From: a virus
Virus record (IMG/VR): IMGVR_UViG_3300048997_000032
Coordinates: 1 to 46,712 of that record
Length of the DNA: 46,712 nucleotides
Direction: 5' to 3' (one strand)
Program-made: the position numbers and the translations under genes
In this document: piece by piece, positions 1,902 to 46,388 of the stretch
Numbering within the stretch: the stretch's first letter is position 1
Layout: every line of letters begins with the position of its first letter
The notes under the pieces: model-generated
The model's input: only the letters and a program-made list of their open reading frames with translations
Database searches by the model: none
What the model was told of the DNA's origin: nothing

Positions 1902-2183
1902 ATGCTTGAAGATACTTCGACCGAAGTTGTTGCCGCTCCCGCCAAGAAGCCGCCGCGCAAACCGCGACCGAGTGAGATCGCGGCCAAGGCTGCGAAGAAG
2001 GCCAAACCGAAGAAAGCCATCAAGAAAACAGTTGGCAGGCCATTCCTCTATCCTGACATGACGTTGGTCCGCATGCCCAAGGGCACCCTGAAGCGCGTTC
2101 ACGCCGCCTGCAAAACTGACGAAGGTCAGGGCGATTTCATGCGCGCCGCCATCATGACTGAATTGAAGCGCCGTCGGAAATAG
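1902..2183 (+). CDS. basic protein with Lys/Pro/Ala-rich N-terminus
   Basis: A 93-residue protein. The ATG at 1902 is preferred because AAAAGGAAATT sits just upstream; an in-frame GTG/TTG-type start 33 nt earlier would overlap the preceding gene. Residues 10-45 are rich in Ala, Lys and Pro, like a flexible nucleic-acid-binding tail. The C-terminal half (about 50-93) has two predicted helices ending in KRRRK. Function unknown. Its TAG abuts the TAG of the leftward neighbour, giving TAGCTA, with no terminator between them. Confidence 0.65.
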   Translation: MLEDTSTEVVAAPAKKPPRKPRPSEIAAKAAKKAKPKKAIKKTVGRPFLYPDMTLVRMPKGTLKRVHAACKTDEGQGDFMRAAIMTELKRRRK

Positions 2184-8302: not shown

Positions 8303-8346
8303 TTGACAGATATCAACCAATAAATTTACGGTAGCGATATCGTAAA
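8303..8346 (+). promoter_or_regulatory. promoter with imperfect 22-bp palindrome operator
   Basis: TTGACA (8303-8308) is followed 18 nt later by TACGGT (8327-8332). The -10 region lies inside an imperfect 22-bp inverted repeat (8325-8346) with arms TTTACGGTA and TATCGTAAA. Nine of eleven base pairs match. This half-site recurs in the early region (39938-39959). A repressor bound here would cover the -10 of the ParB-like gene. Confidence 0.5.
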
Positions 8347-41265: not shown

Positions 41266-41405
41266 ATTATATTTATCTTAGAACCGTTTGGACTGACTTA
41301 CCCTGACCTTGGCGCGGGTGTCGCAAAATACCGTCGCAAGGCCAATCAAGTCGCGACGCAACAATGCTAAATAAATCCTAGGTTTTTAGTCTCTATTGCA
41401 AATCA

Positions 41406-41445
41406 CTTCGACCGGATGGTAGCAATGCCGTCCGGTCTTTCGAAG
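41406..41445 (+). promoter_or_regulatory. hairpin upstream of the primase-helicase gene
   Basis: GACCGGATGG (41410-41419) can pair with CCGTCCGGTC (41428-41437) around an 8-nt loop with one G-U, and flanking CTTC/GAAG (41406-41409, 41442-41445) may extend it. Only three T residues follow. It ends just before the ribosome site, so it may be a weak terminator, a translation control element or part of an origin. The rest of the gap (41266-41405) shows nothing clear. Confidence 0.35.
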
Positions 41446-41455
41446 GCGGATCATC

Positions 41456-43753
41456 TTGAACATGCTGGAACTGGCAAAGGGCCTGTACGCTACGCACGGC
41501 CTGCTGCCTGTCCCCGTGTCCGGAAAGATACCGATGGGCACCGGCTGGAACATGGCATCCATCGCAACTCGGCTGGCTCACATTGCTGCACCGCAATGTA
41601 CCGGCATCGGCATCCAGTGCGGTCTGGTGCTCCACCCGGTTCTAGGCTGGCGTGACGCGCGCATACTCGACATGGACATAGACGACGCCGGACAGCGCAA
41701 CGCTTTTCACCGGGCTTTTCTGCCCGTTCAAAGCTGGCGCTGGGGAAGACGCCCGGCAACCCTGCTGTTTACCGATCCCGGGGTTATCAACCGAGAAAAG
41801 TTTGGCCCCGTCCAACTGCTAGGCGCAGGCAAACAGGCCGTATGGTTCGGACGCTATATCAATGCCAGCCCGCTACCCAACGATCCGACAGACTACTGGC
41901 ATGAAGGCGCTGACATTCTGGACGCGCCAGCGGTCAGCGTTCCCGCTGCCACGCTACAGGCAGCCATCGAAACGGCCCTGACTGCCGCTGGCGTCCCGTT
42001 GCAACAAAAAAGCATGCTTTTGGAGCATGCGAAGCCGTTGAGTCAGGAAGATATCGCTTTTCTCACGCCTGACAATTTTGCCCGCTTCGACGCTGAAATA
42101 AAAAGCATGCTTTTTGATGCTTTGAACAAGCCAACCGGTTCGGGACGTGGTGATCGCTTCTATCATTTGGGTTTGAAATACGGCGCACTGATTAAAGCCA
42201 GCGGATCGGCGCAGGCGTTGACGGACGCAGCTTGCCAGATTTGCCCGGCAGACAAGCTGATCGAATACGAAATCACGAAAAAGCATGCTTTCCTGTACGA
42301 TATCGGAAATATCGCCGATACCGTATTCTCGCAACTGCCCGGTGACTTGGGCGCGGGCGACAAGCGCGACTTCGCCCGGGGCGTCGGCATGTCCATGGGG
42401 CTGGGACAACGTGTCGAGGTAGAAAAGAAAAAGCATGCTTTATTGATGCCAACGGGGCGCGGTTACGCTGGTCAGACCGCCACGGATTTGATGCGGGAAA
42501 ATCTGCCGCCGTTACGTTTTTTAGTTAATCGTTTTTTAAGTGATAGCGGCTGCATCGTGCTCGCTGGCAAACCCAAAGTAGGCAAAGGCTGGATCATTCT
42601 GGAACTGGCGCTGGGGATTGCCGAAGGCGGTCAGTTTTGGGGCGAGCAATGCGAACAGGGCGAGGTGCTGTTGTACATGCTGGAAGACAGCAAGCGCCGG
42701 GCCAAAGAGCGTTTGCAAATCATGCGCCCGAATGGATTGACTACCGGCAACAGCATGCGGTTTCGCTATTCAATGGATGGGCCGTTCTACATCAACGCCG
42801 ATGGTTCGGGTTCATTGCTGGACGACATCAAAGAACATCTACGCTGCTTCCCCGGCATCCGCCTTGTGGTGGTGGACGTGCTGCAACGCATTCGCGGCAT
42901 CATCGATAAAAGCGATAACGCTTATCAGGTTGACTACAAAATCATTGGTGCTATACAAAAACTGTGCGCCGAACATGGCGTCTTGAGCGTCGTGGTTCAC
43001 CACACCAAGAAGGGTAAAGTTGACGAAGCCATTGACAGCATCAACGGCAGCTTTGGCGTGATCGGCGCGGCAGACGGCGGCATCGTGATCGCCCGCGAAG
43101 GCGATATCATGCGGGCAATGAGCATGATGCGCGACGTGGAAGATTTCGAATTTGAGTTGACCAAAGAAGGAAAAAACCCCGTGTGGAAACCTGCGCAAAC
43201 CGCCTCTGAAATGCTGGCCCCCGGCGACGGTTCGAAAACCAACACGGTGCTGCATGCGCTGCTGGCTGCCGCATGCCAACTGACCGCTGGCGATATTTCC
43301 AAGCGCACCGGCATCCCGGAAAACAACGTTGCCACCTATTTGGGCCGCTTGGTGCAGAACAACCAAGCCACCCGGCCGTCGCGCGGCTACTACATGGCGC
43401 ACGGCCTGCCGCCGCGCGAACGCATTGAAGGCATCAAGGACAAGATAAAAAGCATGCTTTTAACCCCGGTCAGTCCTGACATCGAAATGAAGTACGCACC
43501 GAAGGGTGCCCCGGAAGGTGCTAGGTTTATGCTGCTGACCGACGTAACGATCAAGGAAATCGAGGGCAGCTTTATCGGCGGCGAACGCGCGCTGAAAAGT
43601 TTGAAGCTGCGCGGGCTGTGCGAGTACAATGCCGACACGGTATGGCTGATCGGCAGCGAGTGGGGTGGTGCGCAACATCAGGTTTATTTTCCTAACCCAT
43701 TCGCGGTACCGGAAAAAGCATGCTTTAAGTTTCCATGGGAGGTAGGACAGTGA
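41456..43753 (+). CDS. primase-polymerase / RecA-like helicase fusion
   Basis: A 765-residue replication protein. Residues about 1-160 are a prim-pol domain (GLLPVPVSGKIPMGTGW; ILDMDIDD with catalytic acids near 72-76). Residues about 345-600 are a RepA/AAA-type motor: Walker A LAGKPKVGKGW (about 368-378), YMLEDSKRRAKERL, Walker B LVVVDVLQ (about 468-475) and the VVHHTKKGK sensor. The C-terminus has a winged-helix-like part (GDISKRTGIPENNVATYLG). The frame opens at TTG (41456) with GAAGGCGGA upstream; an ATG lies two codons later. The gene contains six of seven AAAGCATGCTTT palindromes, all outside the motor core. Confidence 0.85.
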   Translation: MNMLELAKGLYATHGLLPVPVSGKIPMGTGWNMASIATRLAHIAAPQCTGIGIQCGLVLHPVLGWRDARILDMDIDDAGQRNAFHRAFLPVQSWRWGRRPATLLFTDPGVINREKFGPVQLLGAGKQAVWFGRYINASPLPNDPTDYWHEGADILDAPAVSVPAATLQAAIETALTAAGVPLQQKSMLLEHAKPLSQEDIAFLTPDNFARFDAEIKSMLFDALNKPTGSGRGDRFYHLGLKYGALIKASGSAQALTDAACQICPADKLIEYEITKKHAFLYDIGNIADTVFSQLPGDLGAGDKRDFARGVGMSMGLGQRVEVEKKKHALLMPTGRGYAGQTATDLMRENLPPLRFLVNRFLSDSGCIVLAGKPKVGKGWIILELALGIAEGGQFWGEQCEQGEVLLYMLEDSKRRAKERLQIMRPNGLTTGNSMRFRYSMDGPFYINADGSGSLLDDIKEHLRCFPGIRLVVVDVLQRIRGIIDKSDNAYQVDYKIIGAIQKLCAEHGVLSVVVHHTKKGKVDEAIDSINGSFGVIGAADGGIVIAREGDIMRAMSMMRDVEDFEFELTKEGKNPVWKPAQTASEMLAPGDGSKTNTVLHALLAAACQLTAGDISKRTGIPENNVATYLGRLVQNNQATRPSRGYYMAHGLPPRERIEGIKDKIKSMLLTPVSPDIEMKYAPKGAPEGARFMLLTDVTIKEIEGSFIGGERALKSLKLRGLCEYNADTVWLIGSEWGGAQHQVYFPNPFAVPEKACFKFPWEVGQ

Positions 43754-43798
43754 AATACCCATGGGAAACCGAACCCGAACCGGAAAAAAGCATGCTTT
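42008..43798. repeat. seven AAAGCATGCTTT palindromes
   Basis: Perfect palindromes with core AAAGCATGCTTT at 42008-42021, 42100-42115 (longest, A5GCATGCT5), 42280-42291, 42430-42441, 43448-43461, 43715-43726 and 43787-43798. They are read as K-S-M-L (three in the primase gene, one in the next gene), K-H-A (two) and K-A-C (one), so all three codon phases are used. No further copy was noticed in the window. A bare GCATGC lies at 42025. Such phase-independent repetition suggests a DNA-level role. Confidence 0.85.
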
Positions 43799-44028
43799 CT
43801 GATTTGGACACCTACATCAATTTTATGGATGGCCATGTTCGCGTCCGCGCGTTCAAGGACGGCGTTCAACTCGGCACATTCTCGATCACCAGCGACGGCA
43901 CCGAGCTAGGCGCGGAAATCTCGTTGCAGAACGGTGCAAACTACAAAATTGTCGTTGTCGGCCATCCCGTCACCACTGATCCGATCATGACGCCGGAAGA
44001 ACTGGCAAACTACTTGTTAACAATATGA
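43750..44028 (+). CDS. 92-residue early protein
   Basis: Starts at GTG (43750) with GGAGGT 7 nt upstream, overlapping the primase stop. YPWETEPEPEKSMLSDLDTY precedes a beta-rich domain (GHVRVRAFKDGVQLGTF; GANYKIVVVGHPVTTD). The seventh palindrome lies in its N-terminus. Overlaps the methyltransferase start. Function unknown. Confidence 0.55.
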   Translation: MKYPWETEPEPEKSMLSDLDTYINFMDGHVRVRAFKDGVQLGTFSITSDGTELGAEISLQNGANYKIVVVGHPVTTDPIMTPEELANYLLTI

Positions 44029-44768
44029 CTGCGTATTACAACGAAAATAATGCATACGCCGCTAGCCGTTTGCGGTATTTGATAGCCAACAACTTGATCG
44101 CTCCGGGGGATGTTGATGAAAGAAGCATTCTGGAAGTCACGTCCAGCGATCTTGTCGGATACCAACAATGCCACTTTTTTGCCGGTATCGGAGGTTGGAG
44201 CCTGGCCTTTCGATATGCAGGCGTCCCCGATAGCGAACCTGTCTGGAGTGGTTCTTGTCCCTGCCAGCCCTTTTCCGCAGCCGGATTGCAAGCCGGTTTT
44301 GCTGACAAACGGCATTTATGGCCCGCATGGCACGGCATCATCCGCAAGTGCAGACCTGCAATTATTTTTGGAGAGCAGGTTACAAACGCAATTCGGCTTG
44401 AATGGCTTGACCAAGTTTTCGGTAACCTTGAAGAAGATCAGTACGCCTGTGGGGCGGCAGTTCTGCCAGCTAACACGGTCGGTGCAGACCATGAACGCAA
44501 AAGAATATATTGGGTTGCCTACGCCTTGCGCAAGAGACACGCAGGACTTGGGCCGATTTGGACCCTTCAAAGCGAGCATGGCCCGCCGCACCCGTTCGCT
44601 AACGACCCATTTGTTGGCGCTAGGAATGCCGTGGGGGGTGATTTCATCAGCTTGTTGCCTGGTAATGGGCTATCCCTTGCCATGGAACGTCAGGCGATAC
44701 GCGCCTACGGTAACGCAATCGTTCCGCAAGCAGCCGCTGCTTTCATAAGAGCTACCTTGACAAAATAA
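44025..44768 (+). CDS. C5 cytosine-specific DNA methyltransferase
   Basis: A compact 247-residue enzyme. Motif I is HFFAGIGGW (SAM binding, about 50-58), motif IV GSCPCQPFSAAG with catalytic Cys80, motif VI GEQV in place of ENV, motif VIII GADHERKRIYWV, and motif X YGNAIVPQAAAAFI. The target-recognition region is short. No cognate restriction gene is nearby, so it is an orphan enzyme, probably masking phage DNA from host restriction. ATGA overlap with the previous gene. Confidence 0.85.
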   Translation: MTAYYNENNAYAASRLRYLIANNLIAPGDVDERSILEVTSSDLVGYQQCHFFAGIGGWSLAFRYAGVPDSEPVWSGSCPCQPFSAAGLQAGFADKRHLWPAWHGIIRKCRPAIIFGEQVTNAIRLEWLDQVFGNLEEDQYACGAAVLPANTVGADHERKRIYWVAYALRKRHAGLGPIWTLQSEHGPPHPFANDPFVGARNAVGGDFISLLPGNGLSLAMERQAIRAYGNAIVPQAAAAFIRATLTK

Positions 44769-44785
44769 AAACGGTACCGTAAACT
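44757..44785 (+). promoter_or_regulatory. strong-looking promoter of the SF2 helicase
   Basis: TTGACA (44757-44762), exactly 17 nt, and TAAACT (44780-44785), just before the helicase ATG at 44793. The spacer contains the palindrome ACGGTACCGT (44771-44780), which recalls the 22-bp elements upstream. The TSS would lie near the start codon. Confidence 0.55.
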
Positions 44786-44792
44786 TAACAAA

Positions 44793-46388
44793 ATGAAACA
44801 ACAGATTATCCTTCGACCACATCAGCAGAAGTGCATCGATATGTTGCGCTCGTATCCTGATAAGTATGCCGTGGCCGAAGTTGCTGTAGCTGGCGGCAAG
44901 TCGCTGGTGCTGGGGTGTCTCGCCGGTTTTAACAACACCGGGCGAACGTTGATCTTGGCGCACAACAAGGAACTGGTACACCAAAACGCGGAAGCTTGCC
45001 GCCAAGTCAACATTCAGCCCGGTATCTGTTCGGCTTCCATCGGCAAGAACGTGTTCAGCAAGGTCACGGTCGGAACCGTGCAAACCGTGGTCCGGCGCAC
45101 CAAGTCGTTTCAGGATGTGAATTTAATCCTAGTGGATGAAGTGCATCGAACGCCGGTCAACAAAACCTCAAGCTATCGCAAAGTGTTCGAAGCCATCCCG
45201 CATGCCAAGGTGCGCGGCCTGACCGGCACGCCGTTCCGGGCGGACGGTACCGGCAGTTTGGAAAAAACCTTCGGTCCGATCATTTATCGCTACAGTTTTC
45301 TGGACGCACTGCGCGATGGCTATGTCAAGCCATTGATCCCGGCGCATTCCGAAATGGCAGCCGAAATAAATGTGGAAGGCGTTAAGACGATTGGTGAAGA
45401 TTATGACCTTGACGAGCTTGCCTCACGCGCTATTGCACTGTCCCCGTTGCACTCCAAAGCTATTGTGCAAACAATGCAACGACAGGGTCGCAAATGCGTA
45501 TTGGTATTTGCCTGCAACTGCGAACATGCCGACGTACTGGAAAAACAACTCGGCTCTATCGCGGCGTCCGTTCATAGTAAATCGCCAAAAGGCAAACGCG
45601 AAAAGATGGTGGCCGCTTTTAAGAACGGAACACTTAAAATTTTGATATCGGTTGCGATGTTCGATACCGGCTTCAACGCCGTCGATATCGATCTACTGGC
45701 GTTCTGCCGCGCAACAAAATCCCCGGTGTTCTTTGCGCAGGCATTGGGGCGCGGCGCGCGGTTGACACCGCATGCGGAAAACTGCGCCGTGCTGGACTTC
45801 GGCGGTAACGTCAGTCGCCATGGTGCGCTCGATCAAATTGCAGCGTCGCCCGGCGTTGAACTGCAATGCGACCCCTGCGGCAAACGCTGGGAAACATGGA
45901 AACATGGGCGAACGTGTCCCAAATGCAAAGCAGTCCACAAGAGCGCCACCAAATGCAAGGGTTGTCAGGACCGCTTTGACCAGTTCTACCACGGTGCAAC
46001 CTGCCCTCATTGCGGCCTGATGCAGTCCAGCGTCAAGACGTGCAACGCATGCAGCAACATCTATGCGGTTTGGCTGCATCCGACGTGCCCTCATTGCGGT
46101 TACGACAATACCAACCTACAGAGCCCCGGCAAGGATTTGACTGAAAGCGGAGCGTTGGAAGAATTAATCAACACCACTGATATCATCAAGGCGCAGCCAT
46201 GGCAGCGCGTTACCCGACCTCCGTTCAAAACATCCAGTTGGCAAATACCTACACAATATACCACAGCAAAATGGCCTTACGACACGTTACCGGAAAATAT
46301 CCAAGCGGTGTACTTGACAAAAGCCGGTAACGGCCACATAACCATCAAAGGTTGGTACGATGCCAACGGCGCGGTTCATCAAATTTAG
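44793..46388 (+). CDS. SF2 DEAD/DEAH-type helicase with tandem zinc ribbons
   Basis: A 531-residue helicase. Q-motif-like LRPHQQKCIDML, Walker A AVAGGKS (31-37), Ia LILAHNKELV, II DEVH (115-118), III GLTGTPFR, V/VI near FAQALGRGARL. After about residue 350 come three tandem zinc ribbons, C-x2-C pairs CDPC/CPKC, CKGC/CPHC and CNAC/CPHC, about 30 residues each. It probably unwinds DNA or RNA with extra nucleic-acid binding from the ribbons. It has its own promoter. Confidence 0.85.
   Translation: MKQQIILRPHQQKCIDMLRSYPDKYAVAEVAVAGGKSLVLGCLAGFNNTGRTLILAHNKELVHQNAEACRQVNIQPGICSASIGKNVFSKVTVGTVQTVVRRTKSFQDVNLILVDEVHRTPVNKTSSYRKVFEAIPHAKVRGLTGTPFRADGTGSLEKTFGPIIYRYSFLDALRDGYVKPLIPAHSEMAAEINVEGVKTIGEDYDLDELASRAIALSPLHSKAIVQTMQRQGRKCVLVFACNCEHADVLEKQLGSIAASVHSKSPKGKREKMVAAFKNGTLKILISVAMFDTGFNAVDIDLLAFCRATKSPVFFAQALGRGARLTPHAENCAVLDFGGNVSRHGALDQIAASPGVELQCDPCGKRWETWKHGRTCPKCKAVHKSATKCKGCQDRFDQFYHGATCPHCGLMQSSVKTCNACSNIYAVWLHPTCPHCGYDNTNLQSPGKDLTESGALEELINTTDIIKAQPWQRVTRPPFKTSSWQIPTQYTTAKWPYDTLPENIQAVYLTKAGNGHITIKGWYDANGAVHQI

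Follow-up and report, generated by a model that had tools for sequence, protein, structure and literature searches.

Stoperators of the mycobacteriophage L5 type are short, repeated, directional protein-binding sites in a phage genome, aligned with transcription and spread across the genome at gene ends and in short gaps. The parS-type centromere sites of ParABS systems are clusters of a palindrome of 12-16 bp, and the Rickettsia RPE is a palindromic element inserted in genes. The lambda ori contains four iterons with an 18-bp inverted repeat, located inside gene O (PMC6022878). The site considered here, AAAGCATGCTTT, was analyzed in a stretch of 46,712 bases from an IMG/VR virus record (the window), where it occurs seven times, with all copies lying within positions 42009-43798. 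The original prediction of seven copies of a 12-bp palindrome in 1.8 kb was thus correct, apart from a true start at 42009, one base later than given, and with 0 copies outside this interval the 12-mer is not common across the rest of the genome.

AAAGCATGCTTT ranks first among the 12-mers of the window, the next unrelated 12-mer having 3 copies, and none of its seven copies is reproduced by chance (0 copies in 100 shuffles of the window). A single further place in the window lies within two mismatches of it. The palindrome extends to a maximum of 16 bp at 42102, as predicted. The longer word AAAAAGCATGCTTT, with five A's at its left, is present in all seven copies in one orientation; the site is therefore directional, with the palindrome as its core.

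Six of the seven sites are located in a primase-helicase-like replication gene (P0001; 41456..43753, plus strand, 765 aa), open reading frames in this analysis being mechanically called. The P0001 protein matches Pfam AAA_25 at residues 344-520 (E 7e-26), and its PHROG matches are primase/helicase and DnaB-like. In its structure model, which is of moderate confidence (mean pLDDT 67), the helicase region resembles DnaB and RSF1010 RepA, and the predicted fold resembles that of a replicative helicase of the DnaB/RepA kind. The C-terminal region of P0001 is winged-helix-like. The two structure models of this study (P0001 and a small protein encoded at 1902-2180) used nine sequences each and have a mean pLDDT near 70. 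The six copies in the gene start near residues 185, 216, 276, 326, 665, and 754; none falls within AAA_25, in agreement with the expectation that the copies avoid the helicase motor.

All seven sites are on the plus strand and are distributed over all three reading frames. Four encode KSML: sites 1 (42009..42020), 2 (42102..42113, the 16-bp palindrome), and 5 (43449..43460) in the primase-helicase gene, and site 7 (43787..43798) in the next gene (43750..44028, plus strand, 92 aa from a GTG start), whose product is 84% identical in the related phage G003. Two encode KKHA (sites 3, 42280..42291, and 4, 42430..42441) and one encodes KACF (site 6, 43715..43726), so that the proposed K-S-M-L, K-H-A, or K-A-C by phase, with one copy in the next gene, is what the sequence holds. 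Synonymous-codon shuffles of the primase-helicase gene gave 0.13 copies on average and 2 at most, vs. the 6 observed.

With respect to the relatives of P0001, searches against named phages and plasmids, at both the DNA and the protein level, yielded no close relative, and an initial single-protein scan of viral contigs yielded none. The first set of relatives was found via the motif and is hence biased; relatives were therefore sought again by protein alone. This second search returned nine loci, two of them with the same region, that is, eight distinct relatives. Seven of the eight carry 5-9 copies of the motif in or near the primase-helicase gene, and the exception is the most distant one (G005, 49% identity). 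The window and seven related phages (G001-G004 and G026-G028) are referred to below as group A; these genomes are not independent, and the site numbers given should not be read as numbers of events.

In a codon alignment, the site is found at about ten columns in three frames, each column being filled in a subset of the phages. The column of site 1 is occupied in G001, G002, G004, G026, and G027; site 2 is common to G002, G003, G004, and G026; site 3 to G002, G003, and G004; sites 4 and 5 to G003 and G004, whereas site 6 is found in the window only. A copy of site 7 is present in the corresponding gene of G003. Thus, four sites are common to the window, G003, and G004, despite the G004 protein being only 61% identical. 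Among these proteins of 58-78% identity, the phages with a site at a given column encode KSML, KHA, or KAC there, and those without one mostly show unrelated residues, which indicates that the DNA word and not the peptide is conserved. In one column, G001 still encodes KSML but carries two silent changes (AAG AGC ATG CTC), a decayed or nascent site. On this alignment the word is conserved yet turning over, and the peptide is not what is kept. The claim of a DNA-level element is supported by these comparisons, since the word is retained while the surrounding residues change; conservation of the amino acids with loss of the DNA motif, the finding that was to speak against it, was looked for in the relatives, and the opposite was seen.

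The suggestion that a small palindrome spreads by insertion, with orthologs lacking the inserted residues, agrees with the alignment at site 6. This site lies within 3-6 extra codons of the C-terminal tail and has its left flank, CCGGAAAAA, in common with site 7; extra copies located upstream of the primase-helicase gene in G001, G002, G004, and G028 are also in line with spreading. However, the other sites in the gene differ from the relatives by substitution, with little or no change in length, several of them hold their codon position in phages 60% identical, and half-decayed forms such as that of G001 exist. Insertion is mostly contradicted by these data, 43715 being the exception, and is very unlikely to account for the copies as a set.

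In motif-less G005 (the record of L126), three copies of another word, CTTTAAAG, were observed within 190 bp upstream of the helicase gene (contig positions 28091-28276), adjoining a small gene that gives a weak CopG-type RHH match. The trio is a possible replacement site, three copies being too few for a claim. Separately, L126:13-507 consists of 15-bp tandem repeats with more than 20 units.

The consensus of the 57 group A sites, oriented on the gene, is AAAAAGCATGCTTWTTK, and the conserved unit is 13-17 bp long. Its left flank is nearly invariant and its right flank looser: A occupies two flanking positions in 100 and 98% of the sites, whereas T occupies the mirror positions in 77 and 79%. 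When each site was scored with a matrix built without its own genome, 40 sites were forward, 4 reverse, and 13 neutral. In other lineages the orientation is mostly uniform within many clusters, but not in all. The uniform orientation and the asymmetric flanks argue for a directional site, as a plain palindrome would not need a direction. Helical phasing of the site spacings was not evident. The same orientation relative to the gene might also be expected of an RNA-level element, that is, a hairpin or terminator in the transcript; nonetheless, the seven copies have no common hairpin, only two are clearly below their shuffles, and no Rfam match was obtained, all of which makes such an element highly improbable.

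Immediately downstream of the small gene lies a gene for a C5-cytosine DNA methyltransferase (44025..44768, plus strand; Pfam DNA_methylase, phrog_363), followed by an SF2 DEAD-type helicase gene (44793..46388, plus strand), a conserved neighbor whose family is present in approximately 20 motif-bearing loci. The location of the methyltransferase gene directly next to the sites is consistent with the proposal that GCATGC is a restriction or methylation target tied to this enzyme. The hexamer, however, is at chance level across the window (32 copies vs. 30.3 expected), the conserved unit is longer than it, tblastn gave no match to the methyltransferase in the other motif-bearing group A genomes, and motif-less G005 has its own C5-methyltransferase-like gene, matching that of G007. 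The proposal therefore finds no backing here and has hardly any probability left; the methyltransferase is probably a neighbor and not part of the element. Relatives of this methyltransferase are also encoded by the phages L059, L085, L092, and L253, in which four tandem 47-bp repeats, each with AAAAAGCATGCTTT, were observed. Another repeated word of the window, CGGTACCG, has 20 copies scattered from 4466 to 45245, vs. approximately 1 expected from composition; its copy at 44772 has the right flank TAAACTTAAC in common with CGATATCG at 8335.

Beyond group A, the paired motif (two copies 9-39 bases apart) was found in 69 IMG/VR viral stretches, as compared with 2, 4, and 3 stretches for three paired control palindromes of identical composition. 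The 69 stretches constitute 46 groups that have no long blastn match to one another, and 29 of these groups have three or more copies. Many clusters lie in or beside replication genes; a preference for such places is a strong impression rather than a rate measured against random phage regions. The neighboring genes include AAA_25 primase-helicases with and without a PrimPol match, VapE, DUF3987 with an NrS-1-like domain, PHROG primase families 1829 and 3022, and polymerases. Similar clusters near the replication genes of unrelated phages support the original proposal of probable protein-binding sites near a replication origin. In the cultured Serratia phage MyoSmar (L340:2472-2575), three copies, each followed by ATTTTTT, lie 1.4 kb from a virE-domain gene and within a predicted direct terminal repeat. 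Some clusters are located near tail, head, or terminase genes. A literature search found no paper describing the motif, and none of the 38 papers containing the 10-mer is about a phage origin as far as titles and abstracts tell.

The named phages Nipunavirus PaMx25, Variovorax phage VPv62, and Croceibacter phage P2559Y encode relatives of the group C and D helicases but have no motif near the gene. Thus, those helicases do not need the motif, and the site is not tied to one replication protein, so that one has to assume either an accessory factor common to the carriers or similar operators that evolved independently. It is possible, if doubtful, that AAAAAGCATGCTTWTTK is a widespread origin box for a single phage- or host-encoded factor in many unrelated phages; equally tentatively, the site would then have been exchanged independently of the replication proteins, given that it accompanies primase-helicases of different families.

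Some clusters appear to be something else, such as repressor operators in L260, a rhodopsin-gene gap in L209, and arrays in MAGs. In L260 (168-955), AAGCATGCTT stands at both ends of an HTH_3/S24 phage repressor gene, in the form of GTAAAGCATGCTTTAC-like sites, and these copies are probably operators of that repressor. Paired AAGCATGCTT was observed near rhodopsin and carotenoid genes in the Bacteroidota stretches L187, L192, L195, L199, L206, and L209, the L209 pair being located in the gap that immediately follows the rhodopsin gene. Six copies with a spacing of exactly 21 bp were observed in an Azoarcus MAG (L200:7463-7577).

The L260 case bears on the window as well, since proteins of the HTH_3/S24 kind may well use the word. 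The window sites could be operators or stoperators, at which a phage repressor or activator binds many sites of the early replication operon and controls transcription, the uniform orientation reflecting a polar effect on RNA polymerase. Such a role is somewhat unlikely. In its favor, orientation is uniform within clusters, and the G031 sites, which lie in short gaps between consecutive genes, look more like transcriptional control. By contrast, the window sites are all inside genes, with no copy in the upstream gap 41266-41455, they are confined to the replication region rather than genome-wide, and neither ORF clustering nor an HTH profile search found a common regulator gene.

The search for a common trans-acting factor was likewise negative. 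ORF clustering of approximately 36 genomes or loci gave no convincing candidate, nor did the genes present in motif carriers and absent from G005, and no single protein was found to track the motif across lineages. A candidate DNA-binding protein of ribbon-helix-helix-like topology, with a GRP (AT-hook-like) motif, is encoded at 1902..2180 (plus strand). Its model has a strand-helix-helix arrangement (mean pLDDT 70), it has no Pfam match, and it is present in all group A genomes and in motif-less G005. Recruitment of a host protein by the phages, or a partition-type site, is improbable. The occurrence of the word in phages with unrelated replication proteins, and its absence near related helicases in phages that infect other hosts, would suit a host protein. 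On the other hand, the 14-mer has only 5 copies in 369 Gammaproteobacteria genomes, about the chance level, which speaks against a host regulon in these bacteria, and few copies of the motif are present in the twelve genomes that gave the cellular matches. As for partition, the ParB-like gene of the window has a counterpart only in motif-less G005 in the group A comparison.

Taken as sequence evidence, the above makes it very probable that the element works at the DNA level, as a binding site for a protein, and there is about an even chance that the copies are iteron-like binding sites for a protein at a replication origin or in the region that controls it. The seven copies would be binding sites for a sequence-specific DNA-binding protein, each with the palindromic core AAGCATGCTT embedded in the directional site AAAAAGCATGCTTWTTK on the gene strand. 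With spacings of approximately 20 bp to 1 kb in the phages studied, the putative sites would allow several molecules of the protein to gather on the primase-helicase region, and the assembly would most likely open or load an origin there, or control its firing, on the model of lambda O on the iterons inside gene O. Support for an origin from base composition is weak. The detrended GC-skew minimum of the window (42136) is inside the cluster, a weak signal confounded by gene direction; in most relatives the minimum lies up to 9 kb upstream, and in two this fails. In the window the AT-richest stretches are located outside the cluster, whereas an AT-rich stretch lies next to the sites in G004 and near the cluster in G003.

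Origins are unknown for most environmental phages. A word marking the replication region of dozens of unrelated phages, if real, would allow origin prediction from sequence, and its sharing would point to a common control factor. The locus also offers a clear case in which putative DNA binding sites are retained within a protein-coding gene at the expense of its amino acids. MyoSmar, being cultured and having three copies, may make the idea testable.

Compared with the known systems, the element resembles the Rickettsia RPE in that a palindrome recurs within genes and is read in more than one frame; however, it is much shorter, is conserved position by position in relatives, and, except at 43715, shows no sizeable insertion relative to orthologs at most sites. 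With parS it has in common a clustered palindrome of the 12-16 bp class, but no matching ParB accompanies it, the ParB-like gene of the window being absent from the other motif-bearing group A genomes. Like L5-type stoperators, the sites are asymmetric and aligned with transcription (by the 40:4:13 split above), whereas they have a palindromic core, are clustered in the replication region of both the window and its relatives instead of being scattered, and have no known repressor. As in the lambda ori, several repeated sites with inverted symmetry lie inside a phage replication gene, or, for group A, in that gene or its upstream region. In contrast to lambda, the copies extend over approximately 1.8 kb and in relatives partly lie upstream of the gene, the core is a 12-bp palindrome without a gap, the gene encodes a primase-helicase, and phages whose replication proteins are unrelated have the same word. 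The anatomy of the site, with several identical, directional, palindrome-cored copies clustered at a primase-helicase gene, is nonetheless most similar to that of intragenic iterons, of which those of lambda are an example.
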